Assembly (NCBI GenBank): GCA_025617745.1
Contig: CM046859.1
Location: 26,401,371-26,465,370 of the forward strand
Direction of reading: 5' to 3'
DNA length: 64,000 nt
Origin: Heliocidaris erythrogramma
Taxonomy: Eukaryota > Echinodermata > Echinoidea > Camarodonta > Echinometridae
Below, in pieces: positions 24,203-57,697 of the stretch. The position numbers and the translations under genes were made by a program. The first letter of the stretch is position 1. Every line of letters begins with the position of its first letter. Below the pieces are notes generated by a model. That model did no database searches, had not been told where the DNA came from, and worked only from the letters and a program-made list of their open reading frames with translations.

Positions 24203-24274
24203 CACCCGGTGGAGACATCGTGCCGCCAGGTAACCCAAGTGGGGGAGGCTTCGACCCGAATCCTTCCGAAACAG
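24203..24274 (+). CDS. Exon A, unit 1 (72 bp, phase 1-1)
   Basis: Bounded by acceptor CTGGAAACAG and donor ACAG|GTATGA. In phase 1 it reads (A)PGGDIVPPGNPSG then GGFDPNPSET and opens a Gly codon. This copy differs from the later ones by Gly for Ser in the PPSNP block (CCAGGT against CCAAGT). The Gly/Pro/Asn-rich peptide has no cysteine and is probably an extracellular low-complexity linker; the family is not one I recognise. Its core DIVPPxNPxGGGF resembles DIVGPTNPKGGSF of exon C, so A and C look like ancient duplicates. Confidence 0.75.
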
Positions 24275-24347
24275 GTATGAATTAATAATATTTGTAATAC
24301 TAATAATAATGATAATAAAAAATATAATTATGATAATGATAATTTAC

Positions 24348-24468
24348 CTAACTGCGACTTAAGGCGAAACCTAACATAGAAACTCAACGTTAGGGCGAAA
24401 CGGGTGTGGGTTAGGGCGAAACGGAACAAAAGAACGAGACAAAAGATTTCGCCCTAAGTCGCAGTTAG
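24348..24468. mobile_element. 121-bp inverted-repeat insertion in unit 1
   Basis: CTAACTGCGACTTAAGGCGA at left and TCGCCCTAAGTCGCAGTTAG at right; two TTAGGGCGAAAC copies between them. It is absent from the same place in units 2-5. Confidence 0.7.
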
Positions 24469-24557
24469 AGTTATAATAATAATGGCAATAGTAATAACAA
24501 TAATATATCATACTTTATGTAGCGCATACCAAAACATTTTCCCTATGCGCTGTAATG

Positions 24558-24599
<42 letters not shown>

Positions 24600-24765
24600 G
24601 AGAAAGGATAGAGAAAATAGAGAAGAGTCACATATGCCTAACATACTTCTTTAACTCACCAGAAATTAGCATTCGAAATTGTTTCTAAAAAGACATGTTT
24701 TAAGATGTGTTTTAAAGTTGTCAACAGTTTCGCATTTTTTGATATTTTCTGTTAATTTATTTAAA

Positions 24766-25171
24766 CGCTATTATGATGCAAACTGTAATGACGTGGCCCA
24801 TAAAATCTGGCATTAATTGCTGGGGTAGTAAGGAAATAATTTTGTGAATGTCTGATGTATCTGGTCCATATCCAGTGAGTAATTCAGTCAGATAAGGAGG
24901 AGCCAATCCTTTTAGTTACTTGAAGGTTGAGACAAGGATTTTGAACTCGATTCTAGCACATTCTTACATGTAGAAGTGGTCCAAGCACCTAAATATCGTA
25001 GGTACTTGTGGGCGGATCGAATTGGGGGGGGGGGGGGGGGTGAGCGCGGATCAGGATCAGGACCCACTCTTTTTGCTTGTCGGACATTTTATTGGTATAA
25101 ATCAACGTCAACACCCCCCGAAAACCTGATCACCTCCATTTTATATTTTTTGATACCTTTCTTTTTAAATA
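24766..25171. other. Sequence present in unit 1 and missing from units 2-5
   Basis: Relative to units 2 and 3, about 400 bp lies between AATTTATTTAAACG and AAATATCTGTG. It contains a GGGCGGATCGAATT block followed by an 18-base G run. No ends or target duplication are clear, so insertion in unit 1 and deletion in the ancestor of the others are both possible. Units 4 and 5 lack a longer stretch here. Confidence 0.55.
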
Positions 25172-25898
25172 TCTGTGTTTTTTTGCTTGCTTGCCTTACT
25201 TCATTGGAATCGGGCCTCCCTTTCATAAGATCCTGAATCTGCCCCAAGTACTATTTAAACTTTGAAAATACATGGTGATGAATTTATTGATCCAAAATGA
25301 TATGAAGGCAGAGTTATTGTTAATGGCAGCAATGGTATGAAACTTTGAAAATAATCCTGTAGTTATGATATGTACGTTATTTTAGAGTAATTCGTACGGC
25401 GTTACGAAAAGAAATCTTTTTCCTCTATTTGAAAATCGACAATTTCCCCTCAACATTGATTTTGTTTTCTTTTTCATTCTTTGACAAGTCGATATTAAAT
25501 GGTAATTTAAATCTCTCTGTGATTCTTTGCCATGCACGCAGTCATATTACAACTCAGTATGAACAGATCATTTTGAAAATCAATCATCAGTCATCTTCTT
25601 TTGAGAGCCAGATAGGCGTTAATTCCGCTTAATAGAAAATCAATTAACGCCCTTCTTGCTCTCAGTAGATCCTATTCATTTATTAACAAATGTTCAAAAT
25701 TACATATACTGACCCACAATAAAAAGTACCCACTACTTTATAATGGTATATCATATTTATATTGACAGACACAGAATGACAATGAACCAGGATGGAAAGA
25801 TTGACCTATTGAAACATTTCACTAATTTCGGAAGACAATGCTGTCTCTTGTCAGCGCGCATTACAGCGCAGAACAAGTTGAAAAATGAAAGTGACAGA

Positions 25899-26105
25899 TC
25901 AATAGCGTGTGTGGCCATCATTGCGCACCAGTCTTTGAATGAAATCTTGTGGAATCCTGCTCCATTCATGTTGCAAAGTCTGGATCAGTTGTGCACGAGT
26001 CCTGACCCTGGCAGCAATGCGCCTCCCAAGCTCATCCCACAGATGCTCAATGGGATTGAGGTCAGGGGACATCGCCGGCCACTCCATGGTGTTAATGGAC
26101 GATAT
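25899..26105 (-). pseudogene. Tc1 transposase C-terminal fragment (left arm)
   Basis: Minus strand reads MSPDLNPIEHLWDELGRRIA ... RTRAQLIQTLQHEWSRIPQ ... GHTRY, the end of a Tc1 transposase including the catalytic Glu of NPIEH. The N-terminal two thirds and the first two catalytic Asp are absent. Confidence 0.85.
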
Positions 26106-26233
26106 CCTGAGACCACACCTGGTGCCATTCCTGCAGAACAACCGAGGACTGCGCATCTTAATACCCGACCTCATGCTGCACGGCTAACCACTGTATTCCT
26201 GAGGGGTGAGAACATTAACACCATGGGCCGGCG

Positions 26234-26443
26234 ATGTCCCCTGACCTCAATGCCATTGAGCATCTGTGGGATGAGCTTGGGAGGCGCATTGCTGGCAGGG
26301 TCAGGACTCGTGCACAACTGATCCAGACTTTGCAAGATGAATGGAACAGGATTCCGCAAGATTTCATTCAAAGACTGGTGCGCAGTATGCGTCGCAGATG
26401 CAATGCCTGTCTGCAAACAAATGGTGGCCACACACGCTATTGA
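26234..26443 (+). pseudogene. Tc1 transposase C-terminal fragment (right arm)
   Basis: Same fragment on the plus strand: MSPDLNAIEHLWDELGRRIA ... QTLQDEWNRIPQDFIQRL ... SMRRRCNACLQ ... GHTRY. Pro is replaced by Ala in NPIEH. A stretch (MRRRCNACLQT) present here is missing from the left arm. Confidence 0.85.
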
Positions 26444-26751
26444 TCTGTGACTTTCATTTTTCAACTTGTTGTGTTCTGCGCTGTAATGCGCGCTGATAAG
26501 AGACAGCATTGTCTTCCGAAATTAGAGAAATGTTTCAATAAAAGATCAATCTTTCCACCCTGGTTCATTGTCATTCTGTGTCTGTCAATATAAATATGAT
26601 ATACCATTATAAAGAGACGAGCTAAAAAAAGATGAAGATTGTTTCCATTTTCCCAGAATCATTGATGCATGAACATCCATCATTTAATAAAAGGATGAAC
26701 AAAATTGCGTCTCTCAGAACTTATAAACATATTATTAAGTATTTTTCTTAA

Positions 26752-27343
26752 AGGCCAAGTCCCCCCTAAAATCAAGTTGATTTGAAGAAATAGAGTAAAA
26801 TTAAACAAGCGTAACAGTGGAAATTTCACTGAAATCGGATGTAAAATAAGAAAGTTACGGCATTACGGCATTTTGAAGTTTTGCATTATTTCATGAAACA
26901 GTGATATGCATAACATGGGCGGTATGCAAATGAGTGAACAGATGATGACATGCACTCATTTTTTCTTATATCATATATTTCATTTTTTTGCTTCAATAAT
27001 GTAAAACATGGTTTGAATCCATATAGAACATGTACAACCATCGTTATTGTAACTTATTTTTATACAAGGAAGGGATTCTTTATTATCACATCTATAAAAA
27101 TTGAAATATTTGAAATTTCATATAATAAAATACATAAGGAAAAGTGAGTGTGTGACATCATTGGTTCACTCATTTGCATACCGCCCATGCTATGCATATC
27201 ACTGTTTCATGAAATAATGCAAAACTTCAAAATGCCGTAACTTTCTTATTTTACATCCGATTTAAGTGAAATTTGCATTGTTACGCTTGTTTAATTATAC
27301 TTTATATATTCAAATCAACTTGATATTAGGGTGGACTTGGCCT
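26752..27343. mobile_element. TTAA-flanked hairpin element 5, unit 1 (592 bp)
   Basis: Ends AGGCCAAGTCC and GGACTTGGCCT with TTAA on both sides (26748-26751, 27344-27347) and arms of about 190 bp. Present at the same site in every unit, so older than the amplification. The central loop here is reversed relative to units 2-5. Confidence 0.85.
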
Positions 27344-27553
27344 TTAATTTCTTTAAATTGTTGTAATGGATTGTGCCATTCTTTCGCTCGTGTATTCAAT
27401 AGAGTACATTTAGGTGATGGAGCAAACAATTAATTCAATATTGAAACAGAGTACATGTTTATCTTACGGTGTCTCTGGGCGTCTGTTTGGTTATTTCAGA
27501 GCTTCATTATTCTATATACAAGTAATATTTATCCTTTATTCACGGTTTTACAG

Positions 27554-27604
27554 GCGATACAGACCCAGCACAAAGGCGAGAACGACCAACAACACCAATA
27601 TCAG
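27554..27604 (+). CDS. Exon B, unit 1 (51 bp, phase 1-1)
   Basis: The acceptor ACGGTTTTACAG and donor CAG|GTGAGT are both strong. In phase 1 it reads GDTDPAQRRERPTTPIS and opens a Gly codon. The later copies read GDTDPVQTRERPTAPIS; three residues differ (A/V, R/T, T/A) over 51 bases with no stop or frameshift. Confidence 0.75.
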
Positions 27605-28062: not shown

Positions 28063-28879
28063 TGATTTGGACTGTTTGGATTTATCGAAGCTGGGGACAC
28101 ATTTCCAAACAAGATTATGACGTGGGCTATTTCTTTTTAGATGACCTTTTGGAATATTCGAAAAGTTGGCGCTTTAAATTGACCAGCAGCCACCTGTTCT
28201 AGCGGAACATGAGAAACTAATAATTATGACCTGGTCATTGATTATCAATAATAACTACTCGTTTGAAAGAAAACATGAACAAAGCATGGAAAAAACAACA
28301 AAGAAAGCATGTTCGTAAAAATACTGTGCTGTCTTAGCGAATCTATTCATTTGGATGTACATCCCTATTAAAAATTGATCATTAATATTCTGTCTAAAGC
28401 ACAAGAGTTGTGATTTTCAAGTAAGAATAAAGTTGTTATTTCATTCAAGTATCTGGATCTGAATTAACCAAACAGTAACATTTTCGTCTGATAAATGTCA
28501 AATTTGCCTCTGCCCAGGTTTTGAGTGAAATGGATGGTCAACGCAAGAATGGTTGAATACTAAATGGTTGAATACTTAAAGAAGACATTATCAACCACCA
28601 TACCATTATAGTTTATTTCAGCGATTTCTCTCACTTTTTAAGATATCGGGACTTGAAGATGGGTTTCTTTTTTATTGACTCACACTGTATACATGCATTT
28701 ACTAAATGTATTTTACGGCAAAATGTTAAAAGATTACCTTCATCTATTGAGATGGCAAATAGTTAATTTTGTACACAAAATTTGACGCAGCTGTAGTGAA
28801 GCTGCTTTAATTAACCCATACCCTACGAGAACCGGATGGCCCCTATTTAGCCTAGAGGTCAAAAGACCACAGCTTTGAA

Positions 28880-29640
28880 TTTAGTGCTAGCAACCTACCT
28901 ATGTATATGATGGGGGGGGGGGGGGGGGGCAAAGCTACGCACTTTGTTTCTAGCGGCTAAGAAGTAATTTTATTCAGTGGGTGATGCAAATTTCTTTTAT
29001 ATATCTTGATTCTACAGATTTTGAAGTTAAATCGCTGAAAAACATTATGACGGACAAACGTTAATAACATATGTAGCACCGACATTTTTCGGGTGGGGGA
29101 GGATCGTTCGTTACTAGCGCACCGGAAGAAAATTTTAAACAAGATGTAAAATTATAAAGTATTATTTTACATCTATTCCCTACCTATCGGTCTACAGATA
29201 AAACATGTACATTAATTGAAACATTAATTAATTATATCACGCACTCAATCATATGCTTGAGCGCTACATATTTGGCTGCTAATATAAGCTATGACCGGGG
29301 TAATAATGAAGCGCCACGAGCGTCACAACGTGACGGACATGAGCGCTATACAAGAAGCCACCATTATTATTATTTTATACAGAACATCTAACCTATCTCA
29401 CTAACAATAATTTCCCACATAAACTAAACTGTACTAAATCATTAAAGGAAATATAAAATTCCTTTATTATTAATTAATCAAAAACATATTTACAATATAT
29501 ACAAAGTATGTAACTCAAGATTACATTACTACACTTAAGAAATAAACAACTTGTACATCATGAATAATCACTCGTACACTAACAATATATAACTATATAA
29601 AACTAACTATATAATTATGTTATAAAAATGATTATTCCAG
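28880..29640. other. Intronic spacer of unit 1 without recognised genes
   Basis: Contains a G run (28912-28930) and AT-rich sequence shared with unit 2 (36120-36890). Units 3 and 4 lack this segment and have other sequence instead. No coding exon is visible. Confidence 0.6.
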
Positions 29641-29698
29641 AGAGGGTCTCAGTGCTGAAATGCAATGAACATGATGAAATAATGTTCGTCGTCGATGA

Positions 29699-31356: not shown

Positions 31357-31428
31357 CACCCGGTGGAGACATCGTGCCGCCAAGTAACCCAAGTGGGGGA
31401 GGCTTCGACCCGAATCCTTCCGAAACAG
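31357..31428 (+). CDS. Exon A, unit 2
   Basis: Same borders and phase as unit 1 exon A. Reads (A)PGGDIVPPSNPSG, then GGFDPNPSET. The exon is identical to units 3, 4 and 5, while intronic bases around it vary. Confidence 0.78.
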
Positions 31429-32620
31429 GTATGAATTAATAATATTTAAAATACTAATAATAATGATAATAATGATAATAAAAAATATAACCATGATAAT
31501 GATAATAATTGACAATAGTAATAATAATAATATATGATACTTTATGTAGCGCATACCAAAACATTTTCCCTATGCGCTGTAATGGAGAGAGAAAGAGAGA
31601 GAAAGAGAGAGAGAAAGGATAGAGAAAAATAGAGAAGAGTCAGATATGCCTAACATACTTCTTTAACTCACCAAAAATTAGCATTCGAAATTGTTTCTAA
31701 AAACACATGTTTTAAGATGTGTTTTAAAGTTGTCAACAGTTTCACAATTTTTGATATTTTCTGGTAATTTATTTAAACGTAAATATCTGTGGTTTTTTGC
31801 TTGCTTGCCTTACTTCATTGGAATCGGGCCTCCTTTTCATAAGATCCTGAATCTGCCACAAGTACTATTTAAACTTTGAATATACATGGTGATGAATTGA
31901 TCCAAAATGATATGAAGGCAGAGTTATTGTTAATGGTAGTAATGGTATGAAACTTTGAAAATAATCCTGTAGTTATGATGATATCTATGCTATTTTAGAG
32001 TAATTCGTACGGCGTTACGAAAAGAACTCTTTTTCCTCTATTTGAAAATCGACAATTTCCCCTCAACATTGATTTTGTTTTCTTTTTCATTCTTTGACAA
32101 GTCGATATTATAGATTCAGTTACGTATACAACCATGTTAGAATTATTGTTAAGCGTACCTTTATAGGGTGAAATCGAATTTAATTAAATGGTAATTTAAA
32201 TCTCTCTGTGATTCTTTACCATCACGCAGTCATATTACAACTCAGTATGAACAGATCATTTTGAAAATCAATCATCAGTCATCTTCTTTTGAGAGCCAGA
32301 TGGGCGTTAATTCCGTTTAATAGAAAATCAATTAACGCCCTTCTTGCTCTCAGTAGATCCCATTCATTTATTTATTAACAAATGTTCAAAATTACATAGA
32401 ATTGTCACATGACATTCGACTACATGAGTGAAAAAAGCTAAGCCCATCAAAAACATTTTATTAAGAAAGACATAAATATTTCGAGACGAGCTAAAAAAAG
32501 ATGAAGAATGTTTCCATTTTCCCAGAATCATTGATGCATGAACATCCATCATTTAATAAAAGGATGAACAAAATTGTGTCTCTCAAAACTTATAAGCATA
32601 TTATTAACTATTTTTCTAAA

Positions 32621-33227
32621 AGCCCAAGTCCCCCCTAAAATCAAGTTGATTTGAATAAATAGAGTAAAATTAAACAAGCGTAACAGTGAAAATTTCACTG
32701 AAATCGGATGTAAAATAAGAAAGTTACGGCATTTTGAAGTTTTGCATTATTTCATGACACAGTGATATGCATAGCATGGGCGGTATACAAATGAGTGAAC
32801 CGATTATGTCACACACTCACTTTTCCTTATGTATTTTATTATATGAAATTTCAAATATTTCAATTTTTATAGATGTGATAATAAAGAATCCCTTCCTTGC
32901 ATGAAAATAAGTTACAATAACGATGGCTGTACATGTTCCATATGGATTCAAACCATGTTTTACATTATTGAAGCAAAAAAAAAAATGAAATATATGATAT
33001 TTCATATAATAAAATACATAAGGAAAAGTGAGTGCATGACATCATCGGTTCACTCATTTGCATACCTCCCATGCTATGCATATCACTGTTTCATGAAATA
33101 ATGCAAAACTTCAAAATGCCGTAACTTTCTTATTTTACATCCGATTTAAGTGAAATTTGCATTGTTACGCTTGTTTAATTTTACTTTATATATTCAAATC
33201 AACTTGATATTAGGGTGGACTTGGCCT
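32621..33227. mobile_element. Hairpin element 5, unit 2
   Basis: Same element with left TTAA mutated (CTAAAAGCCC). Loop orientation opposite to unit 1. Confidence 0.85.
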
Positions 33228-33437
33228 TTAATATCTTTACATTGTTGTAATGGATTGTGCCATTCTTTCTCTCGTGTATTCAATAGAGTACATTTAGGCG
33301 ACGGAGCAAACAATTAATTCAATATTGAAACAGAGTACATGTTTATCTTACGGTGTCTCTGGACGTGTGTTTGGTTATTTCAGAGCTTCATTATTCTATA
33401 TACAAGTAATATTTATCCTTTATTCACGGTTTCACAG

Positions 33438-33488
33438 GCGATACAGACCCAGTACAAACGCGAGAACGACCAACAGCACCAATATCAG
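33438..33488 (+). CDS. Exon B, unit 2
   Basis: Acceptor TTTCACAG, donor CAG|GTGAGT; reads GDTDPVQTRERPTAPIS with symmetric phase 1. A 520-bp retroposon has landed in the intron about 105 bases downstream. Confidence 0.78.
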
Positions 33489-34115: not shown

Positions 34116-35315
34116 CTTGCACAGTGATAACGTTGAATAGGCTCCAACCGAATCTGCGGAAATATGTATACGAAACGAGGGCGTTAGCAAAAAAATTATC
34201 TACTGAGGCAGTTGTGAAATGATGAGTCTGATGCTACCCAAAACGATAGCCAATGGTTTGATGGTTTATTTAACCTGCCTGTTAAGAAAGCATGTGTATG
34301 CTTGTAAGTAAGCAACCATGGGATCGAATGCTTTAAGTCCTCTCAGGGGGACTTGGTAATAAGGATTAATGCCTTACCAAAGGGCACCAGCGCATTCACT
34401 CAGTTTCGAACTGCTCTACCACTGATTCATCGCGCCTCCACTGGGTGATTTGGACCGTTTGGATTTATCGAAGCTGGACATGTTTCCAAACAAGATTATC
34501 ACGTGGGCTTTTTCTTTTTAGATGACCTTTTGGAATATTCGAAAAGTTGGCGCTTTGAATTGACCAGCAGCCACCTGTTGTAGCGGAACATGAGAAACTA
34601 ATAATTATGACCTGGTCATTGATTATCAATAATAACTACTCGTTTGAAAGAAAACATGAACAAACAACAAAGAAAGCATGTTCGTAAAAATACTGTGCTG
34701 TCTTAGCGAATCTATTGATTTCGATGTACATACCTATTAAAAATTGATCATTAATATTCTGTCTAAAGCACAAGAGTTGTGATTTTCAAGTAGGAATAAA
34801 GTTGTTATTTCATTCCAGTATATGGATCTGAATTAACCAAACAGTAACATTTTCGTCTGATAAATGTCAAATTTTCCTCTGCCCAAGTTTTGAGTGAAAT
34901 GGATGGTCAACGCAGGAATGGTTGAATACTAGTAATCTCCATTCCAATTGAATACTCTTACAAATAATGGACATGATGGAAGCTACTTCTGAACACCACT
35001 CAGCCCAAAACTTGGGCAAAGCCAAACTTGACATGCACGTAATAATTGGTCAGTGCTCCGTAATTTATGATCGGATTTTGGTGAAGAGCCTATCAACTTA
35101 AAGAAGACATTATCAACCACCATACCATTATAGTTTATTTCAGCAATTTCCCTCACTTTTTAAGATATCGGGACTTGAAGATGTGTTTCTTTTTTATTGA
35201 CTCACACTGTATACACGCATTTACTAAATGTATTTTACGGCAAAATCTTAAAAGGTTGCTTTTGAGATAAAATCAATTAAACAAATATGAGGTTTTGTCT
35301 TTCTCCAAAAAGCAG

Positions 35316-35381
35316 CTGGAGCTGACATTGTTGGACCTACAAATCCAAAAGGAGGATCTTTCACCTTGGGAGGTTCTGGAG
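35316..35381 (+). CDS. Exon C, unit 2 (66 bp, phase 1-1)
   Basis: The pyrimidine tract TTTTGTCTTTCTCC leads into a tandem acceptor AAG-CAG, and the donor is GGAG|GTATGA. From the second AG, in phase 1, it reads (A)GADIVGPTNPKGGSF then TLGGSG. If the first AG were used, one extra codon would be added without changing frame. Clear similarity to exon A (DIVxPxNPxGGxF) suggests one ancestral module. Confidence 0.75.
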
Positions 35382-38300
35382 GTATGAATGAAGTTTATTT
35401 TCCTACCGAAAAAAAGTCACATGGAAATGGATGCAGCTCTACGCTACTAATCTTAGTTTTTCAAATGTCTGTTTTACACGAGGCATCAATAGCGCCATTG
35501 CTTGCGCTAATTAAGTCTGTGACGGAAAGTTGCATGCGGCATTAATTCAAATCAATATTTTGTACTTTTCATTTTACATTCCTTTTATATCACTTTCACA
35601 TGATGCGTCAAAGACTGCACCATAAGTCGCTGACGCAGGCCTAAGTCCACCGTTTCGGACTAAGCACAACTGGAGGGCAGTTGCAATATCTTTCTGTATA
35701 TGAAATGCAGAAATATTACAGTCACCTTTAATAATCTGAATATTCTTTCTATATAGCCCGGTAAAGAAGTTGCTCGTGAGGTAATTTAAAGTGAGGGAAT
35801 GAATTCTATAATTAAATGTATAGTTATGAAACTATTTTTAGCAGGAAGAACAGTTGTAAAAGGAACCATAATTCAAAACTTGTATGTGTGATTTAAGCCA
35901 TGAGCTGAGAGCACCGTTACTTGAACACGATACAGAATGAGAATGTAAATATTTGGCTGTAAAACAAGACAGCCCTCTGGAAAAAAAAGTGAACATGATC
36001 GATGCGCTTTATGCCAAGTAGACTTCTCAAAGATTAATGACACCACATTGATCCCATAATTGTGTCGTTTTTTTTAGCCCAAACTAAACATGTAATGGGG
36101 TAAGGAGGGGGGGGGGGGGTAACAGATTACTTTCATCTATTTTGATGGCAAATAGTTAATTTTGTACACAAAATTTGACGCAGCTGTAGTGAAGCTGTTT
36201 TAATTAACCCATACCCTACGAGAACCGGATGGCCCCTATTTAGCCTAGAGGTCAAAAGACCACAGCTTTGAATTTAGCGGTAGCAACCTACCAACGTGTA
36301 TGATGGAGGGGGGGGGGGGGGGGGGGCAAAGCTACGCACTTTGTTTCTAGCGGCTAAGAAGTAATTTTATTCAGTGGGTGATGCAAATTTCTTTTATATA
36401 TCTTGATTCTACAGATTTTGAAGTTAAATCGCTGAAAAACATTATGACGGACAAACGTCAATAACATATGTAACACCGACATTTTTCGGGTGGGGGAGGA
36501 TCGTTAATTACTAGCGCAGCGGAAGAAAATTTTAAACAAGATGTAGAAGTATTATTTTACATCTATTCCCCACCTATCGGTCTACAGATAAAACATGTAC
36601 ATTAATTGAAACATTAATTAATTATATCACGCACTCCATTATACAGAACATCTAACCTATCTCACTAACAATAAATTCCTCCACATAAACTAAACTATAC
36701 TAAATCATTAAAGGAAATATAAAATTTCTTTATTATTAATTAATCAAAAACATATTTACAATATACAGTATACAAAGTAAGTAACTCAAGATTACATTAC
36801 TACACTTAAGATATAAACAACTTGTACATCATCAATAATCACTCGTACACTAACAATATATAACTATATAAAACTAACTATTAATTATGTTATAAACATG
36901 ATTATTCCAGAGAGGGTCTCAGTGCTGAAATGCAATGAACATGATGAAAAAAGGTTCGTCGTCGATGACCTGTAAAGGCAGGAAAATAGAATTTATTGAG
37001 AGCTTATGGAAGTTGGATGTTGCCTCTCCATCTTCATTTGGTGAAAGAGCATTTAATCAAAGTATAAGTTTGTAAACTAAAAGTATATGGCAACATTTAA
37101 ATCAATCCTTACGTAATAAATATCAACGTGACATTTCATAGTAATCATGTTAGTAATTTGGTTTTACATCAAATGCATGCAATTCAAGAGATGGTCTGGC
37201 ACAATATTGTTCAGGAGAGTCTTTATTCTAATACATTAGAGTTCGCACGGTATTACTGCGGCAAGATAGAGAACTCAACCTATCCGCTTGACCAGGATAA
37301 TACCGTTATTATTTTGGATTCACTAATTGCTTAAAAGTTGTATGATTCTAACTTCAAAGGCTATTATTACAAAAATCGCTCTGTGCACGCGCTGCTAGAC
37401 AATAGTGAACAACAAGTGCTTGACCATGAACAGAGATCGGAAATGGTTAGTAACATATCCACATAGACTGCTTGTCTTGTGTAATAAACTGCGGTATATA
37501 ATATAAGTATACAATAAGATGTATTTAAGTTAACTATCATATATTGTTCTAATGAAGCATTGATGTGACACACATGGTGTGGCACATTATTCAAAATATC
37601 AATCTAAATCCATTTACATCCATCCCATCCTTTATTGAATAAGGATGTGTACAATGCAAAACAATCTATTGATCTTTAAATTAATATATAAAAATGACTT
37701 ATGGATCTTACCTGTAAAGGCAGGAAAACAGAATTTATTGAGAGCTTATGGAAGTTGGATGTTGCCTCTCCATCTTCATTTGGCGAAAGAGGAAGATGCT
37801 CCAACAAAGAACATGAATGTTGGTATCGGATATACGATTATTGTAACAAAGGGGTATGAGTAGTTACAGGTGATTAAATATATTGACCCTTGAGCATTTC
37901 ACAATCACAGGATTTTATGTAATTATAAATAATTACATACAAATACATCAAGAAATATCATTCAAAAGTATACTAATAATAATTGAACATTAAACTGACA
38001 GTATGTTTCCATCTTAATAACTTACTACCCCTCTGGGTATTTAGTGTGGAAAATTCCAAAACAAGTGTGTGTCCAGAGTGAGGGAGGTATGCTCAGTCGT
38101 CAAGAGGTATAGCCTTGAGCCAACTGGACATTCCCATGCCCTTGGGTTGTGTGTAACGCATACACTCTGTGTGTGTGTATGGACAACGACTCACTCCTAA
38201 CACTATATACATACATGCAGTGTACGTGGGTATTAATTAAAGGGATCAGTCCCCTTTTAATAAAATTACTGTAGCACCAAAGAGGGGCTACACATACATT

Positions 38301-38624: not shown

Positions 38625-38696
38625 CACCCGGTGGAGACATCGTGCCGCCAAGTAACCCAAGTGGGGGAGGCTTCGACCCGAATCCTTCCGAAACAG
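38625..38696 (+). CDS. Exon A, unit 3
   Basis: Same splice borders, length and translation as exon A of unit 2. Confidence 0.78.
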
Positions 38697-41634: not shown

Positions 41635-41685
41635 GCGATACAGACCCAGTACAAACGCGAGAACGACCAACAGCACCAATATCAG
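41635..41685 (+). CDS. Exon B, unit 3
   Basis: Same borders and translation as exon B of unit 2 (GDTDPVQTRERPTAPIS). Confidence 0.78.
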
Positions 41686-43502: not shown

Positions 43503-43568
43503 CTGGAGCTGACATTGTTGGACCTACAAATCCAAAAGGAGGATCTTTCACCTTAGGAGGTTCTGGAG
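43503..43568 (+). CDS. Exon C, unit 3
   Basis: Same borders and peptide as exon C of unit 2; one synonymous change (TTG to TTA for Leu in TLGGSG). Confidence 0.75.
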
Positions 43569-44782: not shown

Positions 44783-46537
44783 TAATATAAAACTAACTAT
44801 TAATTATGTTATAAACATGATTATTCCAGAGAGGGTCTCAGTGCTGAAATGCAATGAACACGATGAAATAAGGTTCGTCGTCGATGACCTGTAAAGGCAG
44901 GAAAACAGAATTTATTGAGAGCTTATGGAAGTTGAATGTTGCATCTCCATCTTCATTTGGTGAAAGAGCATTTAATCAAAGTATAAGTTTGTAAACTAAA
45001 AGTATATGGCAACATTTAAATCAATCCTTACGTAATAAATATCAACGTGACATTTCATAGTAATCATGTTAGTAATTTGGTTTTACATCAAATGCATGCA
45101 ATTCAAGAGATGGTCTTGCACAATATTGTTCAGGAGAGTCTTTATTCTAATACATTAGAGTTCGCACGGTATTACTGCGGCAAGATAGAGAACTCAACCT
45201 ATCCGCTTGACCAGGATAATACCATTATTATTTTTGATTCGCTAATTGCTTAAAAGTTGTATGATGCTAAATTCAAAGGTTACAAAAATCGTTCTGTGCA
45301 CGCGCTGCTAGACAATAGTGAACAACAAGTGCTTGACCATGAACAGAGATCGGAAATGGTTAGTAACATATACACATAGACTGCTTGTCTTGGGTAATAA
45401 ACTGCGGTATATAATATAAGTATACAATAAGATGTATTTAAGTTAACTATCATATATTGTTCTAATGAAGCATTGATGTGACACACATGGTGTGACACAT
45501 GATTCAAAATATCCATCTAAATCCATTTATATCCATCCCATCCTTTGTTGAATAAGGATGTGTACAATGCAAAACAATCTATTGATCTTTAAATTAATAT
45601 ATAAAAATGACTTATGGATCTTACCTGTAAAGGCAGGAAAACAGAATTTATTGAGAGCTTATGGAAGTTGGATGTTGCCTCTCCATCTTCATTTGGTGAA
45701 AGAGGAAGATGCTCCAACAAAGAACATGAATGTTGGTATCGGATATACGATTATTGTAACAAAGGGGTATGAGTGGTTACAGGTGATTAAATATATTGAC
45801 CCTTGAGCATTTCACAATCACAGGATTTTATGTAATTATAAATAATTACATACAAATACATCAAGAAATATCATTCAAAAGTATACGAATAATAATTGAA
45901 CATTAAACTGACAGTATGTTTCCATCTTAATAACTTACTACCCCTCTGGGTATTTAGTGTGGAAAATTCCAAAAAAAGTGTGTGTCCAGAGTGAGGGAGG
46001 TATGCTCAGTCGTCAAGAGGTATAGCCTTGAGCCAACTGGACATTCCCATGCCCTTGGGTTGTGTGTAACGCATACACTCTGTGTGTGTGTATGGACAAC
46101 GACTCACTCCTAACACTATATACATACATGCAGTGTACGTGGGTATTAATTAAAGGGATCAGTCCCCTTTTAATAAAATTACTGTAGCACCAAAGAGGGG
46201 CTACACATACATTTTCGAGTCGATGTCGATGCGGTGTCAAATTTTGTTCGACAAAATAAAGGGCCCTAAAGATGCGCACACGTAATTAATGAACGCAAAT
46301 CTTGATTTTGATGCTGAATGATATGAATGTTACCCCGACTTCCAAATAGTGATAAAAAATATCACCAAAAATTAAGGACAATTACTCATTCTTTTTGGCA
46401 ATTGTAAATTATATTTTTGGTTGCTCAGTTACACCAAAAGTTTGGCGCATTTTATTCACCTCCTCCATTTCCAAAGAGAAATTTTTCGAACCATATTTAC
46501 AGATTGTACAAATCTTGTCCTTTGTATCTGGAAACAG

Positions 46538-46609
46538 CACCCGGTGGAGACATCGTGCCGCCAAGTAACCCAAGTGGGGGAGGCTTCGACCCGAATCCTT
46601 CCGAAACAG
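46538..46609 (+). CDS. Exon A, unit 4
   Basis: Same splice borders, length and translation as exon A of units 2, 3 and 5. Confidence 0.78.
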
Positions 46610-47469
46610 GTATGAATTAATAATATTTAAAATACTACTAATAATGATAATAAAAAATATAATCATGATAATGATAATAATGACAATAGTAATAATAATA
46701 ATATATGATACTTTATGTAGCGCATACCAAAACATTTTCCCTATGCGATGTAATGGAGAGAGAAAGAGAGAGAAAGAGAGAGAGAAAGGACAGAGAAAAA
46801 TAGAGAAGAGTCAGATATGCCTAACATACTTCTTTAACTCACCAAAAATTACCATTCGAAATTGTTTCTAAAAACACATGTTTTCCTCTATTTGAAAATC
46901 GACAATTTCCCCTCAACATTGATTTTGTTTTCTTTTTCATTCTTTGACAAGTCGATATTATAGATTCAGTTACGTATACAACCATGTTAGAATTATTGTT
47001 AAGCGTACCTTTATAGGGTGAAATCGAATTTAATTAAATGGTAATTTAAATCTCTCTGTGATTCTTTACCATCACGCAGTCATATTACAACTCAGTATGA
47101 ACAGATCATTTTGAAAATCAATCATCAGTCATCTTCTTTTGAGAGCCAGATGGGCGTTAATTCCGTTTAATAATAGAAAATCAATTAACGCCCTTCTTGC
47201 TCTCAGTAGATCCCATTCATTTATTAACAAATGTTCAAAATTACATAGAATTGTCACATGACATTCGACTACATGAGTGAAAAAAGCTAAGCCCATCAAA
47301 AACATTTTATTAAGAAAGACCTAAATATTTCGAGACGAGCTAAAAAAAGATGAAGAATGTTTCCATTTTCCCAGAATCATTGATGCATGAACATCCATCA
47401 TTTAATAAAAGGATGAACAAAATTGTGTCTCTCAAAACTTATAAGCATATTATTAACTATTTTTCTAAA

Positions 47470-48077
47470 AGCCCAAGTCCCCCCTAAAATCAAGTTGATT
47501 TGAATAAATAGAGTAAAATTAAACAAGCGTAACAGTGAAAATTTCACTGAAATCGGATGTAAAATAAGAAAGTTACGGCATTTTGAAGTTTTGCATTATT
47601 TCATGACACAGTGATATGCATAGCATGGGCGGTATACAAATGAGTGAACCGATTATGTCACACACTCACTTTTCCTTTTGTATTTTATTATATGAAATTT
47701 CAAATATTTCAATTTTTATAGATGTGATAATAAAGAATCCCTTCCTTGCATGAAAATAAGTTACAATAACGATGGCTGTACATGTTCCATATGGATTCAA
47801 ACCATGTTTTACATTATTGAAGCAAAAAAAAAAAATGAAATATATGATATTTCATATAATAAAATACATAAGGAAAAGTGAGTGCATGACATCATCGGTT
47901 CACTCATTTGCATACCTCCCATGCTATGCATATCACTGTTTCATGAAATAATGCAAAACTTCAAAATGCCGTAACTTTCTTATTTTACATCCGATTTAAG
48001 TGAAATTTGCATTGTTACGCTTGTTTAATTTTACTTTATATATTCAAATCAACTTGATATTAGGGTGGACTTGGCCT
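47470..48077. mobile_element. Hairpin element 5, unit 4
   Basis: As unit 2. Confidence 0.85.
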
Positions 48078-48287
48078 TTAATATCTTTACATTGTTGTAA
48101 TGGATTGTGCCATTCTTTCTCTCGTGTATTCAATAGAGTACATTTAGGCGACGGAGCAAACAATTAATTCAATATTGAAACAGAGTACATGTTTATCTTA
48201 CGGTGTCTCTGGACGTGTGTTTGGTTATTTCAGAGCTTCATTATTCTATATACAAGTAATATTTATCCTTTATTCACGGTTTCACAG

Positions 48288-48338
48288 GCGATACAGACCC
48301 AGTACAAACGCGAGAACGACCAACAGCACCAATATCAG
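48288..48338 (+). CDS. Exon B, unit 4
   Basis: Same borders and translation as exon B of units 2, 3 and 5. Confidence 0.78.
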
Positions 48339-48444
48339 GTGAGTGTTTGATAGCCTTTTAGTTGTTATAGTTAAAATGACTTGGGGAAATTATTTGTTAA
48401 ATAATTTTTAACGAAATGCGTTATCATGGTTACTGAGAGACTTG

Positions 48445-48948
48445 ATTTTGATTTGATTTTATTTCTTTCCACAATCGGTTTACATATGTACATGAGAAAT
48501 ATAAACATAAGCATATGGCATAATACAAAGGATAAAACATATATCATGACAACTCAGTATAATAAATATCTTCCAGTAAAAGTAATAAACGTATACAGTA
48601 TATACACTTGTGGGGGAACCTATTAAAAGCGAGGCTTGTCGAGTTAGGTCCCCATTTAGCGATAAAAGGAGCTGGAAAGTAAAATGGAGAGATTTAGATG
48701 AGAAAAAACAAAGAAAGGACGGGAATCAGCAGATGGAAACAAAAGAAAACATATAAAAATTAAGTAGCTATAGTGTGTGGAGAGAGAGAGAGAGAGAAAA
48801 GAAAAGAGAGATAGAGAAGAAAGAAGAGAGAAGGGAGAAGAGAGAAGCGAAGTACAGATCGAGATCAGCAACCATGCAGCATTCTAGTATAAGGTTTCAG
48901 CAAAAGAGATTTCAATTGTTTTTTAAAATGGTGCAGTCTCTCTATTTC
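48445..48948 (-). mobile_element. Truncated retroposon, unit 4
   Basis: Orthologous to 33595-34115 and 41792-42302; shorter GA microsatellite. Confidence 0.7.
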
Positions 48949-50148
48949 CTTGCACAGTGATAACGTTGAATAGGCTCCAACCGAATCTGCGGAAATATGT
49001 ATACGAAACGAGGGCGTTAGCAAAAAAATTATCTGCTGAGGCAGTTGTGAAATGATGAGTCTGATGCTACCCAAAACGATAGCCAATGGTTTGATGGTTT
49101 ATTTAACCTGCCTGTTAAGAAAGCATGTGTATGCTTGTAAGTAAGCAACCATGGGATCGAATGCTTTAAGTCCTCTCAGGGGGACTTGGTAATAAGGATT
49201 AATGCCTTACCAAAGGGCACCAGCGCATTCACTCAGTTTCGAACTGCTCTACCACTGATTCATCGCGCCTCCACTGGGTGATTTGGACTGTTTGGATTTA
49301 TCGAAGCTGGACATGTTTCCAAACAAGATTATCACGTGGGCTTTTTCTTTTTAGATGACCTTTTGGAATATTCGAAAAGTTGGCGCTTTGAATTGACCAG
49401 CAGCCACCTGTTGTAGCGGAACATGAGAAACTAATAATTATGACCTGGTCATTGATTATCAATAATAACTACTCGTTTGAAAGAAAACATGAACAAACAA
49501 CAAAGAAAGCATGTTCGTAAAAATACTGTGCTGTCTTAGCGAATCTATTGATTTCGATGTACATACCTATTAAAAATTGATCATTAATATTCTGTCTAAA
49601 GCACAAGAGTTGTGATTTTCAAGTAGGAATAAAGTTGTTATTTCATTCCAGTATCTGGATCTGAATTAACCAAACAGTAACATTTTCGTCTGATAAATGT
49701 CAAATTTGCCTCTGCCCAAGTTTTGAGTGAAATGGATGGTCAACGCAGGAATGGTTGAATACTAGTAATCTCCATTCCAATTGAATACTCTTACAAATAA
49801 TGGACATGATGGAAGCTACTTCTGAACACCTCTCAGCCCAAAACTTGGGCAAAGCCAAACTTGACATGCACGTAATAATTGGTCATTGCTCCGTAATTTA
49901 TGATCGGATTTTGGTGAAGAGCCTATCAACTTAAAGAAAACATTATCAACCACCATACCATTATAGTTTATTTCAGCAATTTCTCTCACTTTTTAAGATA
50001 TCGGGACTTGAAGATGTGTTTCTTTTTTATTGACTCACACTGTATACACGCATTTACTAAATGTATTTTACGGCAAAATGTTAAAAGGTTGCTTTTGAGA
50101 TAAAATCAATTAAACAAATATGAGGTTTTGTCTTTCTCCAAAAAGCAG

Positions 50149-50214
50149 CTGGAGCTGACATTGTTGGACCTACAAATCCAAAAGGAGGATCTTTCACCTT
50201 AGGAGGTTCTGGAG
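50149..50214 (+). CDS. Exon C, unit 4
   Basis: Same as unit 3 exon C including the TTA codon; tandem AAGCAG acceptor kept. Confidence 0.75.
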
Positions 50215-50581
50215 GTATGAATGAAGTTTATTTTCCTACCGAAAAAAAGTCACATGGAAATGGATGCAGCTCTACGCTACTAATCTTAGTTTTTCAAATG
50301 TCTGTTTTACACGAGGCATCAATAGCGCCATTGCTTGCGCTAATTAAGTCTGTGACGGAAAGTTGCATGCGGCATTAATTCAAATCAATATTTTGTACTT
50401 TTCATTTTACATTCCTTTTATATCACTTTCACATGATGCGTCAAAGACTGCACCATAAGTCGCTGACGCAGGCCTAAGTCCACCGTTTCGGACTAAGCAC
50501 AACTGGAGGGCAGTTGCAATATCTTTCTGTATATGAAATGCAGAAATATTTCAGTCACCTTTAATAATCTGAATATTCTTT

Positions 50582-51429
50582 CTTTATATCCCTTCTATGA
50601 ATATTCATGAGCATTTTAAATATATGATTGGTCAATTGGTGATCACGTGATAAAATATAATTTAACTAGGAAAAACAAATCTCTGTCAGAGCTCCGAATA
50701 TCTTTCACTATTTTTTCCTGGGCAGAACTGCGCATGCTCTATTTAATATTTTCTTCCAAGGCGCTACTGCGCATGCTCACTTAGTCACTGTTCATTGAAA
50801 AAAAATTGAAAAAAAAATTGTGTCAAATTCGAACGCTCAGATGACCCGATAAGCGAGTCCTTGACCTTGTGCGGACTGCTCATAACCTTGCCGCCTGCAG
50901 TATCGGCGCAAGTCACCGGTAATTTAGCCCCGCGCCTGGATCCGAATCAGCTGTATTATTATTCGAAAGTCTTCGATCAAACAGCTAAGACAAGTCATGT
51001 AGACTCGAGTCTATATGGGGGACCTAAAGCTAAGCTACGCACTTTGTTTTGTATCGTTTTGTATGTGGAGCGCGTATTCTAACCATAGACAACGCGTATT
51101 AAAAGTGGTGCGTAGCTTTAGGACCCGCGTAGCTTTAGGACCCCTGCCATATAACTACAAGTTACATGTAATTGTACGGTACTATTAAGGTTAGTCAAAA
51201 TATTGTTTTATGTTTTTTTTTTTTTTTTTAATTAGTTGTAAAGAAGGGATATAAAACAAATATACCAAGCATTTAGTTCGAAATTATAGTGGAAATTATA
51301 TATCTTCGGAGGGACTGGTATAACTATTTTTTCCTCGGGGCTTTGCCCCTCGGAAAAAATAGTATTATGCCAGTCCCTCCTCAGATAAATAATTTCCACT
51401 ACACTTTCTCACAGCTTGGTATATTTGTA
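50582..51429. other. Segment special to units 3 and 4 (unit 4 copy)
   Basis: Nearly identical to 43937-44782, including the long hairpin and the ATG-less frame at 50861. Confidence 0.5.
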
Positions 51430-53184
51430 TAATATAAAACTAACTATTAATTATGTTATAAACATGATTATTCCAGAGAGGGTCTCAGTGCTGAAATGCA
51501 ATGAACACGATGAAATAAGGTTCGTCGTCGATGACCTGTAAAGGCAGGAAAACAGAATTTATTGAGAGCTTATGGAAGTTGAATGTTGCATCTCCATCTT
51601 CATTTGGTGAAAGAGCATTTAATCAAAGTATAAGTTTGTAAACTAAAAGTATATGGCAACATTTAAATCAATCCTTACGTAATAAATATCAACGTGACAT
51701 TTCATAGTAATCATGTTAGTAATTTGGTTTTACATCAAATGCATGCAATTCAAGAGATGGTCTTGCACAATATTGTTCAGGAGAGTCTTTATTCTAATAC
51801 ATTAGAGTTCGCACGGTATTACTGCGGCAAGATAGAGAACTCAACCTATCCGCTTGACCAGGATAATACCATTATTATTTTTGATTCGCTAATTGCTTAA
51901 AAGTTGTATGATGCTAAATTCAAAGGTTACAAAAATCGTTCTGTGCACGCGCTGCTAGACAATAGTGAACAACAAGTGCTTGACCATGAACAGAGATCGG
52001 AAATGGTTAGTAACATATACACATAGACTGCTTGTCTTGGGTAATAAACTGCGGTATATAATATAAGTATACAATAAGATGTATTTAAGTTAACTATCAT
52101 ATATTGTTCTAATGAAGCATTGATGTGACACACATGGTGTGACACATGATTCAAAATATCCATCTAAATCCATTTATATCCATCCCATCCTTTATTGAAT
52201 AAGGATGTGTACAATGCAAAACAATCTATTGATCTTTAAATTAATATATAAAAATGACTTATGGATCTTACCTGTAAAGGCAGGAAAACAGAATTTATTG
52301 AGAGCTTATGGAAGTTGGATGTTGCCTCTCCATCTTCATTTGGTGAAAGAGGAAGATGCTCCAACAAAGAACATGAATGTTGGTATCGGATATACGATTA
52401 TTGTAACAAAGGGGTATGAGTGGTTACAGGTGATTAAATATATTGACCCTTGAGCATTTCACAATCACAGGATTTTATGTAATTATAAATAATTACATAC
52501 AAATACATCAAGAAATATCATTCAAAAGTATACGAATAATAATTGAACATTAAACTGACAGTATGTTTCCATCTTAATAACTTACTACCCCTCTGGGTAT
52601 TTAGTGTGGAAAATTCCAAAAAAAGTGTGTGTCCAGAGTGAGGGAGGTATGCTCAGTCGTCAAGAGGTATAGCCTTGAGCCAACTGGACATTCCCATGCC
52701 CTTGGGTTGTGTGTAACGCATACACTCTGTGTGTGTGTATGGACAACGACTCACTCCTAACACTATATACATACATGCAGTGTACGTGGGTATTAATTAA
52801 AGGGATCAGTCCCCTTTTAATAAAATTACTGTAGCACCAAAGAGGGGCTACACATACATTTTCGAGTCGATGTCGATGCGGTGTCAAATTTTGTTCGACA
52901 AAATAAAGGGCCCTAAAGATGCGCACACGTAATTAATGAACGCAAATCTTGATTTTGATGCTGAATGATATGAATGTTACCCCGACTTCCAAATAGTGAT
53001 AAAAAATATCACCAAAAATTAAGGACAATTACTCATTCTTTTTGGCAATTGTAAATTATATTTTTGGTTGCTCAGTTACACCAAAAGTTTGGCGCATTTT
53101 ATTCACCTCCTCCATTTCCAAAGAGAAATTTTTCGAACCATATTTACAGATTGTACAAATCTTGTCCTTTGTATCTGGAAACAG

Positions 53185-53256
53185 CACCCGGTGGAGACAT
53201 CGTGCCGCCAAGTAACCCAAGTGGGGGAGGCTTCGACCCGAATCCTTCCGAAACAG
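53185..53256 (+). CDS. Exon A, unit 5
   Basis: Same splice borders, length and translation as units 2-4. Confidence 0.78.
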
Positions 53257-54112: not shown

Positions 54113-54720
54113 AGCCCAAGTCCCCCCTAAAATCAAGTTGATTTGAATAAATAGAGTAAAATTAAACAAGCGTAACAGTGATAATTTCACTGAAATCGGA
54201 TGTAAAATAAGAAAGTTACGGCATTTTGAAGTTTTGCATTATTTCATGACACAGTGATATGCATAGCATGGGCGGTATACAAATGAGTGAACCGATTATG
54301 TCACACACTCACTTTTCCTTATGTATTTTATTATATGAAATTTCAAATATTTCAATTTTTATAGATGTGATAATAAAGAATCCCTTCCTTGCATGAAAAT
54401 AAGTTACAATAACGATGGCTGTACATGTTCCATATGGATTCAAACCATGTTTTACATTATTGAAGCAAAAAAAAAAAATGAAATATATGATATTTCATAT
54501 AATAAAATACATAAGGAAAAGTGAGTGCATGACATCATCGGTTCACTCATTTGCATACCTCCCATGCTATGCATATCACTGTTTCATGAAATAATGCAAA
54601 ACTTCAAAATGCCGTAACTTTCTTATTTTACATCCGATTTAAGTGAAATTTGCATTGTTACGCTTGTTTAATTTTACTTTATATATTCAAATCAACTTGA
54701 TATTAGGGTGGACTTGGCCT
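54113..54720. mobile_element. Hairpin element 5, unit 5
   Basis: As unit 2. Confidence 0.85.
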
Positions 54721-54930
54721 TTAATATCTTTACATTGTTGTAATGGATTGTGCCATTCTTTCTCTCGTGTATTCAATAGAGTACATTTAGGCGACGGAGC
54801 AAACAATTAATTCAATATTGAAACAGAGTACATGTTTATCTTACGGTGTCTCTGGACGTCTGTTTGGTTATTTCAGAGCTTCATTATTCTATATACAAGT
54901 AATATTTATCCTTTATTCACGGTTTCACAG

Positions 54931-54981
54931 GCGATACAGACCCAGTACAAACGCGAGAACGACCAACAGCACCAATATCAG
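54931..54981 (+). CDS. Exon B, unit 5
   Basis: Same borders and translation as units 2-4. Unlike them, the following intron lacks the 520-bp retroposon and resembles unit 1 instead. Confidence 0.78.
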
Positions 54982-55663
54982 GTGAGTGTTTGATAGCCTT
55001 TTAGTTGTTATAGTTAAAATGACTTGGGGAAATTATTTGTTAAATAATTTTAACGAAATGCGTTATCATGGTTACTAAGAGACTTGCACAGTGATAACGT
55101 TGAATAGGCTCCAACCGGATCTGCGGAAATATGTATACGAAACGAGGGCATTAGCAAAAAAAATTATCTACTCGAGGCAGCTGTGAAATGATGAGTCTGA
55201 TGCTACCCAAAACGATAGCCAATGGTCTGATGGTTTATTTAACCTGCCTGTTAAGAAAGTATGTGTATGCTTGTTAATAAGCAACCATGGGATCGAATGC
55301 TTTAAGTCCTCTCCGAGGGACTTGGTAATAAGGATTAATTCCTTACCAAAGGGCACTAGCAGCCACCTGTTCTAGCGGAACATGAGAAACTAATAATTAT
55401 GACCGGGTCATAATTATCAATAATAACTACTCGTTTGAAAAAAAAAACATGAACAAACAAAGCATGGAAACAAACAACAAAGAAAGCATGTTCGTGAAAA
55501 TATTGTGCTGTCTTAGCGAATCTATTGACTTGGATTTACATCCCTATTGAAAGTTGGTCATTAATATTCTGTCTAAAGCACAAGAGTTGTGATTTTCAAG
55601 TAGGAATAAAGTTATTTCATTCAAGTATCTGGATCGGAATTAACCAAACTAACATTTTCGTCT

Positions 55664-56037
55664 GATAAATGTCAAATTACTCTTAAATAAATAAATAGAT
55701 AAGTGTTAAAATACTCTTACAAAGAATGGACATGGTGGAAGCTACTTCTGAACACCACTCAGCCCAAAACTTGGGCAAAGCCAAACTTGACATGCACGTA
55801 ATAATTGGCCAGTGCTCCGTAATTTATGATCGGATTTTGGTGAAGAGCCTGATAAATGTCAAATTACTCTTAAATAAATAAATAGATAAGTGTTAAAATA
55901 CTCTTACAAAGAATGGACATGGTGGAAGCTACTTCTGAACACCACTCAGCCCAAAACTTGGGCAAAGCCAAACTTGACATGCACGTAATAATTGGCCAGT
56001 GCTCCGTAATTTATGATCGGATTTTGGTGAAGAGCCT
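55664..56037. repeat. Perfect 187-bp tandem duplication in unit 5
   Basis: 55664-55850 and 55851-56037 match throughout as far as I can see (both start GATAAATGTCAAATTACTC and end GGTGAAGAGCCT). Other units have one copy of the corresponding sequence, so this is recent. Confidence 0.9.
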
Positions 56038-56251
56038 ATCAACTTAAAGAAGACATTATCAACCACCATACCATTTATTTCAGCGATTTCTCTCACTTTT
56101 TAAGATATCGGGACTTGAAGATGGGTTTCTTTTTATTGACTCACACTGTATACATGCATTTACTAAAATATTTTACGGCAAAATGTTAAAAGGCTGCTTT
56201 TGAGATAACATAAATGAAACAAATATGAGGTTTTGTCTTTCTCCAAAAAGC

Positions 56252-56274
56252 ATTGTTGGACCTACAAATCCAAA
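56252..56274 (+). pseudogene. Relic of exon C, unit 5
   Basis: After the usual TTTTGTCTTTCTCC tract and AAAAAG, the CAGCTGGAGCTGA at the exon start is missing, leaving the bases for IVGPTNP, and the exon breaks off after AATCCAAA into sequence that normally lies downstream. Donor and 3' half are deleted, so this cassette is dead. Confidence 0.7.
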
Positions 56275-56338
56275 TTATGCGTTACTAATCTTAGTTTTTC
56301 AAAATTAATGTATGTTTTGTTGTACTCGAGGCATCAAT

Positions 56339-56367
56339 ACGTATACGACCAACAAGACCAGTATCAG
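56339..56367 (+). pseudogene. Relic of exon B, decayed unit 6
   Basis: The bases ACGACCAACAAGACCAGTATCAG match the 3' half of exon B, followed by the same intron sequence, but the donor is GTTATT in place of GTGAGT and the 5' half with the acceptor is gone. Confidence 0.65.
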
Positions 56368-56659
56368 GTTATTGTTTTATAGTCTTTTAGTTGTTATAGT
56401 TAAAATGACTTGGGGGAATAATTTGTGAAATAACTTTGACAAAATGCGTTACCATGGTTACTGAAAGACTTGCACAGTGATAACGTTGAATAGGCTCCAA
56501 CCGAATCTGCGGATACCGGGACTTGAATATGGGTTTCCTTTTTATTGACTCATACTGTATGCATTTACTAAATGTATTTTACGGCAAAATGTTAAGAGGT
56601 TGCTATTGATAAAAAATAAATTAAACAAGTATGATGTTTTGTCTTCCTCCAAAAAGCAG

Positions 56660-56725
56660 CTGGAGGTACAATTGTTGGATCTGGGAATCCAACCGGAGGA
56701 TCATTCAACCTCGGGAGTTCTGGAG
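56660..56725 (+). CDS. Diverged exon C (unit 6), phase 1-1
   Basis: A 66-bp exon with the same tandem AAGCAG acceptor and donor GGAG|GTATAA. It reads (A)GGTIVGSGNPTGGSF then NLGSSG. It differs from the other C exons at many positions, several of them replacing residues, but the frame, length and Gly-rich pattern are intact, which argues for an older, still functional copy. Confidence 0.7.
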
Positions 56726-57076
56726 GTATAAGTGAATTTATTTTTCCTACTGAGAAAAAAAAATCACATGGAAATGGATGCAGCTTTATGCGTTACTAAT
56801 ATAAGTTTTTGAAATGTATGTTGTACACGAGGCATCAATGGCGGCGTTACCTTCCTTAATTAAGTCTGTCACGGCAAGTTGCATACGGCATTATAAGATT
56901 GCACCATTGGTCGCTGACGCAGTCCTAAGTGAAGCGAATGACGCTTCGTGTACAACGGACTGAGGACATATATGATAAAACATATCTTGTTGGTTTGCTT
57001 TGCTTCATCTTCGGTGATTCATGCATAAAATAAGAATGATTTGCAGGGGTCATAAAAAACATATACACAAAAAGAT

Positions 57077-57290
57077 GTCATGGTTCATTCACTTGACTCT
57101 CAATCCAAGGGTTGAGGGTTTTAACGCTAGTATAGCGCCTTTTGGCAAGACATTAATCCATATTTGCCACTCTCCACCCAGGTGTTAAATGGGTAACTGG
57201 CAGGATTTATTCCTTAATGTGATATGCGCTTTCCATGAACGGTTTATTACTATTATCATTATTATCATTATCATTCGGATGATAGTGATT
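57077..57290 (+). mobile_element. tRNA-derived SINE, degraded head
   Basis: Same body as the SINE at 4866 (GGTTCATTCACTTGACTCTC, CATTAATCCATATTTGCCAC, CCACCCAGGTG, GGCAGGATTTATTCCTTAA) but the B box is lost, with an ATT/ATC microsatellite tail. Confidence 0.7.
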
Positions 57291-57610
57291 TGCACGAATT
57301 GCCTTTCTAGTGGGCTTGATTAATAACGCAGTCGAAATGACGCCTCGTGTAAAAAGGTTCACTTTGTATTCACTTTTCTACCGTTTAGACCGCACAAGTC
57401 GATGACGCAGCCCTATTCGTCAGAAAAAAGATAATGTCGCCTCGTGTGGAACTGTGTCACCGGCATTAGAAACACACCGAAATACACTTGACATAAGAAA
57501 AAAATGGAGTCCAACCAGCTAAATTCCTAAAAATCTTTTCATCGTAACAATATATATATATATTTAGTTTAATTCTCATTTGGAAAATTGTTCTTGTACT
57601 TCTCATTCAG

Positions 57611-57697
57611 GCAATTTTAATCTGCGAGCGCTCTTTCAAAGCAAGATTGGAAAGTCGTCAGGTAAACCATTCGAACTTGTTCCTTCGGAAAAGAAGG
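57611..57697 (+). CDS. Linker exon D (87 bp, phase 1-1)
   Basis: Acceptor TTCTCATTCAG and donor AAGG|GTAAGT bound 87 bases that read in phase 1 as GNFNLRALFQSKIGKSSG followed by KPFELVPSEKK and a Gly codon start. FNL and KSSG echo the FNLGSSG end of the preceding exon. A second possible donor (TCAG|GTAAAC) at 57661 would give a 51-bp exon, also phase 1-1, so both forms stay in frame. More exons may follow; I could not identify them before the window end. Confidence 0.65.

Follow-up and report, generated by a model that had tools for sequence, protein, structure and literature searches.

A candidate coding multi-kilobase tandem repeat downstream of a SUEL lectin domain in Heliocidaris erythrogramma

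Described systems and the locus

Kringle IV-2 of the human LPA gene is a repeat whose unit measures 5.6 kb and holds two short exons (about 160 and 182 bp); alleles have from 1 to about 40 such units (PMC11462820). Here we consider a 64,000-nucleotide stretch of the sea urchin Heliocidaris erythrogramma (GenBank assembly GCA_025617745.1, contig CM046859.1, positions 26,401,371 to 26,465,370 of the forward strand; hereafter the window, whose own coordinates are used throughout), in which exons of a SUEL domain are followed by a tandem array of short exons. By analogy with LPA, and from the sequence alone, the array is best read as an intragenic multi-kilobase coding variable number tandem repeat (VNTR). 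To the full proposal, namely that the SUEL and array exons belong to one gene whose product would be a lectin domain followed by a Gly/Pro/Ser/Thr-rich spacer, we give about an even chance.

The likeness to LPA would lie in an intragenic, head-to-tail unit of several kilobases with short exons, near-identical copies and a reading frame that is kept (PMC11462820). The LPA exons encode a folded kringle, whereas the candidate 51-72 bp exons of the window would encode a Gly/Pro-rich peptide, and the LPA copy range is documented per allele, whereas the window array is known from one sequence. CR1, a surface receptor gene, contains an intragenic low copy repeat in which a multi-exon block is duplicated in an allele-dependent manner (PMC5937907); that repeat adds ligand-binding sites, whereas the window array would add spacer. 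The micro-exon genes of schistosomes offer a looser parallel, with short exons of 6-81 bp, mostly 15 bp, whose lengths are mostly multiples of three, long introns and secreted products, and tandemly repeated 81-base exons are cited in the same article (PMC10526429). At 51, 66 and 72 bp, the window exons lie within that range, none of those counted being 15 bp long, and sit in near-identical multi-kilobase units; the available excerpt does not mention a SUEL domain for the schistosome genes (PMC10526429).

On the lectin side, CSL3, latrophilins and SpREJ3 have a SUEL domain in common with the window, as judged by Pfam and by a sequence search of the PDB; in SpREJ3 the domain belongs to a large surface protein of a sea urchin (PMC1934368). 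In the available excerpt of that source, no amplified exon array is described for SUEL or rhamnose-binding lectin proteins (PMC1934368), and a literature search judged by titles and abstract openings yielded no SUEL gene with such an array. A first-pass annotation of the window knew of no described family with these peptides. The peptides are indeed without a relative in the limited protein searches reported below, but the architecture is already described, in LPA (PMC11462820), and the mechanism, an intragenic coding VNTR, is already known.

The tandem array and its mini-exons

The array occupies 24110-56893 of the plus strand and is a genuine tandem repeat. Self-comparison resolves five head-to-tail units that start at 24110, 31263, 38531, 46444 and 53091, with successive starts 7153, 7268, 7913 and 6647 bp apart (a spacing of 6.6-7.9 kb). 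Units 3 and 4, the youngest pair, have 6 differences in 6643 aligned sites (99.9% identity outside indels), and their alignment has 1274 gapped columns, mostly sequence found in unit 3 only. Unit 2 aligns with unit 3 in two long pieces at 99.1% and 97.8% identity with a differing stretch in between, and the aligned pieces of unit 1 show 89-98% identity to the other units. Near-identical units of several kilobases thus stand head to tail, as in a VNTR of the LPA kringle IV-2 kind, and this near-identity, which speaks of recent homogenisation or duplication, makes copy-number variation likely.

A regular unit contains, in order, the putative exons C (72 bp), B (51 bp) and A (66 bp), all on the plus strand, with AG/GT borders, symmetric phase 1-1 and lengths divisible by three. 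Thirteen copies are intact and open: five of C (24203-24274, 31357-31428, 38625-38696, 46538-46609 and 53185-53256, one in each unit), five of B (27554-27604, 33438-33488, 41635-41685, 48288-48338 and 54931-54981, likewise) and three of A (35316-35381, 43503-43568 and 50149-50214, in units 2, 3 and 4). The A-B-C triplet that had been proposed to repeat along some 32 kb therefore exists over the extent of the array, but it is not uniform. Exon A is missing from unit 1, where 28574-28732 matches 35096-35254 and 28727-29253 then matches 36120-36643, with A skipped. The last unit carries, besides its C and B, an A remnant that is truncated, with 13 bp gone across the acceptor (56251-56274), a B remnant reduced to its 3' part, with a donor score of -0.1 (56345-56367), and a diverged exon A' whose frame is open and whose donor is weak (56660-56725; score -0.3), all on the plus strand. 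As the absence of A from unit 1 and these remnants show, single cassettes have been lost and broken in the past. A low donor score alone does not disqualify A', because the 5' SUEL exon also has a low-scoring donor (0.87).

Two further candidate exons of the same symmetric phase flank the array on the plus strand: E (3595-3648; 54 bp; PVKGEVFVEPSPPVEGP; splice scores 1.9 and 7.2) and D, outside the repeat (57611-57697; 87 bp; splice scores 5.2 and 6.2). The first-pass description of symmetric phase-1 exons of 66, 51, 72, 54 and 87 bp, with AG/GT borders and lengths divisible by three, thus holds. Its tally of 17 or more exons with good borders stands for the 13 intact array exons; 17 is reached only with A', with its weak donor, 3595-3648, 57611-57697 and the SUEL exon at 1738-1861, which was probably its count, and the last of these, 124 bp long and entered in phase 0, falls outside the phase-1 scheme.

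Within unit 4 (46441-53090), a scan for open candidates of 45-100 bp with symmetric phase 1 found C, B and A and no others on the plus strand, and nothing on the minus strand. Sixty first-order Markov resamplings of this unit gave a mean of 0.32 candidates, and 1 of the 60 reached three, a chance estimate that serves as a guide only, the thresholds having been chosen after the exons were seen and the splice matrices being general and untrained. The same scan gave three plus-strand candidates in 1-24000 and three in 57000-64000, with none on the minus strand in either. Since the units are near-identical, the repetition of the exon borders from unit to unit is not independent evidence. A 42-bp phase-1 candidate found in units 1-4 (30777, 38045, 45958 and 52605; acceptor score 0.5) was left out of the exon count, and further plus-strand candidates occur outside the array (e.g., 12153-12182, 14563-14607 and 58653-58691). 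Apart from the two remnants, no convincing additional copy of A/C or B was found elsewhere in the window. Kinship of D or E with A/C is unsupported, the best shuffle ranks being 229/5000 for D with A' and 252/5000 for D with C.

The best evidence that the cassettes code comes from the resemblance between A and C. Their peptides are identical at 10 of 15 aligned residues, an alignment score reached by 1 of 100000 residue shuffles, and among the nine possible frame pairs the proposed one scores 57 and the other eight 16 or less. Over 16 aligned codons, the differences number 3, 6 and 11 at the first, second and third positions (third versus the other two, p=0.012). The flanking introns are dissimilar (35% and 47% identity over 60 bp, ungapped), and the resemblance is confined to the protein level. 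Since the peptides are alike in one frame only, with differences biased to third positions and introns unlike, A and C appear to be old duplicates preserved as protein. The case for symmetric coding exons in every unit consists of the open phase 1-1 candidates and this A-C homology, with unit 1 lacking A. Conservation among units 2-4, where a MAFFT alignment has 1 of 189 exon sites variable versus 416 of 6343 others, was not used, because unit 2 alone accounts for 411 of the 417 variable sites and 379 lie in columns 5000-7000, where its sequence differs.

Within the array, 55662-56037 of the last unit is a perfect tandem duplication of 187 bp. An extra block in unit 1 (25706-26614) contains inverted repeats and part of a DDE_3 transposase, the latter at 27.7 bits, just below the cut-off of 28.6. 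The C-B intron of unit 2 holds a 250-bp inverted repeat (32619-32868 and 32980-33229; arms 93% identical and 111 bp apart), which looks like a foldback element; it recurs in later units, with a more diverged copy in unit 1.

The SUEL domain and its link to the array

The SUEL domain is genuine. Its 5' exon (2-97, plus strand) is cut by the window start and ends in phase 0, and its 3' exon (1738-1861, plus strand) is entered in phase 0 and left in phase 1. Joined, they encode 73 residues that match PF02140 at 38.6 bits (E=1.4e-9), above the gathering cut-off of 31.4, as the first-pass annotation had proposed; the 3' exon alone reaches 19.9 bits. The match covers positions 14-80 of the 80 in the profile, the first 13 falling outside the window, and the joined exons also match CSL3 in the PDB (E=1.1e-16). 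The conserved motifs of the family, YGR, DPC and KYL, read FGR, DSC and KYI here. The domain is of the rhamnose-binding lectin type and may bind galactose or rhamnose.

The SUEL 3' exon exits in phase 1, which is the entry phase of E, of the array exons and of D. All of these lie on the same strand, and when they are joined the reading stays open for 413 residues; we infer that E belongs to the same gene. Since D too is left in phase 1, the gene should continue past 57.7 kb; no convincing next exon was found after D in the window. The 322 residues after E consist of 20% glycine, 17% proline, 10% serine and 9% threonine, and a full C-B-A set contributes 63 residues, which bears out the Gly/Pro-rich linker of about 63 residues per unit proposed earlier. 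Such a make-up suggests a disordered, possibly O-glycosylated spacer.

No relative of a 359-residue model protein was found at E<=1 among 7996 candidates sharing most words (lengths about 197-628), nor of an 847-residue model protein, whose residues 1-154 were scored against 160 candidates (lengths about 466-1482). These searches would miss relatives of other lengths or without common 5-residue words, and even ordinary SUEL proteins were absent from the results. The collection does include animal proteins, the reading frame of a Tc1-type transposase in the window having given 1120 matches at E<=0.001.

A number of observations weigh against a single translated gene. Among them are the weak acceptors of C and A (1.2 and 1.7 by the untrained matrix); the others are set out here with the alternatives they bear on. 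The strongest competitor, which we hold to be a real possibility but clearly less probable than one gene, is that the array is a coding VNTR of another gene, the SUEL gene ending within the first 24 kb and the first exon of the mini-exon gene having gone unrecognised. E is separated from the first C by 20.5 kb that include a Tc1-type and a gypsy-type element, strand and phase are the sole ties between the SUEL exons and the array, and D exits in phase 1, so that the gene must run past 57.7 kb. Conversely, the strand is shared and the phases are compatible, and a scan of the plus strand from E to D (3.6-57.6 kb) with two sets of thresholds found no signal-peptide-like first exon, a negative of uncertain power, because the reverse-strand control gave 0 hits in 3.6-24.2 kb and 2 in 3.6-57.6 kb. 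A separate small gene in each unit was likewise considered and set aside, the same scan having found no first-exon candidate.

It is rather unlikely, in our view, that the mini-exons are relics, formerly coding and now drifting in a duplicated intron where they are skipped or little used. The recent copies are without visible purifying selection. Pooled, they differ at 16 of 188 exon sites and 62 of 1012 intron sites (p=0.26), a comparison in which A' was set against A of unit 2 with two gaps placed in the exon by the aligner (12 differences in 65 sites; against A of unit 3 they number 16 in 66). Exons being no more conserved than introns, exon conservation in recent copies was rejected as proof of coding. 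A and A' yield nonsynonymous and synonymous divergences (dN and dS) of 0.29 and 0.35, and the three changes in B and the one in C of unit 1 are all nonsynonymous. Exon A is also absent from unit 1, and the remnants of A and B, both broken, lie in the last unit together with the weak-donor A'. Against decay, the A-C homology speaks of long past constraint, and the open frame and both splice borders are kept in 13 of 13 intact copies, itself a weak argument because units this young would in any event be expected to be free of stops and frameshifts. Finally, that the array is partly an assembly artefact, with one youngest unit placed more than once, is suggested by the mere 6 differences in 6643 aligned sites between units 3 and 4 and is very improbable given the 1274 gapped columns of that alignment, mostly unit 3-only sequence, the indels and divergence proper to units 1 and 2, the remnants and 187-bp duplication of the last unit, and the existence of at least three distinct unit versions.

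Neighbouring features and the meaning of the array

The window has a G+C content of 37% and a CpG observed/expected ratio of 0.77. The intron that separates the SUEL 3' exon from E contains a tRNA-Arg (TCT) gene (2442-2513, minus strand; 65.5 bits in Rfam). The 20.5 kb from E to the first C include a Tc1-type transposase (9394-10424, plus strand) and a gypsy-type integrase core (20812-22002, minus strand; PF00665 at 4.1e-14). In the former, the frame 9394-10185 matches PF01498 at 1.5e-13 and the end, to 10424, is apparently in another frame; the closest protein among the matches listed is 86% identical, and some of those listed are from fishes and Littorina. The end of a LINE-type (long interspersed nuclear element) reverse transcriptase occupies 59226-60278 of the minus strand (zf-RVT, PF13966, at 2.3e-7). 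A degenerate satellite-like 16-bp repeat with the consensus TATTAGACCAAATGG extends over 7258-8220, and other tandem repeats occur at 13203-13858 (period 323 bp) and 61187-61503 (period 120 bp).

Returning to the single-gene proposal, the locus would be one gene with both ends outside the window, encoding a SUEL lectin domain and then a probably disordered Gly/Pro/Ser/Thr-rich spacer, the latter specified by symmetric phase-1 mini-exons within a multi-kilobase tandem repeat. Unequal crossing-over between the near-identical introns would gain or lose whole C-B-A sets of 63 residues each, the way in which the LPA kringle IV-2 repeat works, and alleles of differing stalk length would arise easily, because such gains and losses leave the frame intact. 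One transcript would then carry all the exons, copy number would vary between individuals and the spacer would act as a length-variable stalk. A more far-reaching and doubtful idea is that the spacer of what would be a lineage-specific lectin varies in length from one individual to another, and perhaps also among transcripts if interchangeable phase-1 cassettes are skipped. The lectin may even be a recognition protein that diversifies in both length and sequence, the latter because amino acid changes have accumulated in recent copies at about the rate of silent ones.

On the whole, the first-pass observation largely stands once amended, and its interpretation is plausible in part. Downstream of a lectin domain, the locus presents a clean candidate for a coding VNTR with multi-kilobase units. 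Should the SUEL exons and the array prove to be one transcript, a lectin gene of a non-model animal would contain a coding VNTR of the LPA type, and stalk-length variation of a sugar-binding protein, along with the selection acting on it, would become directly testable in a population.

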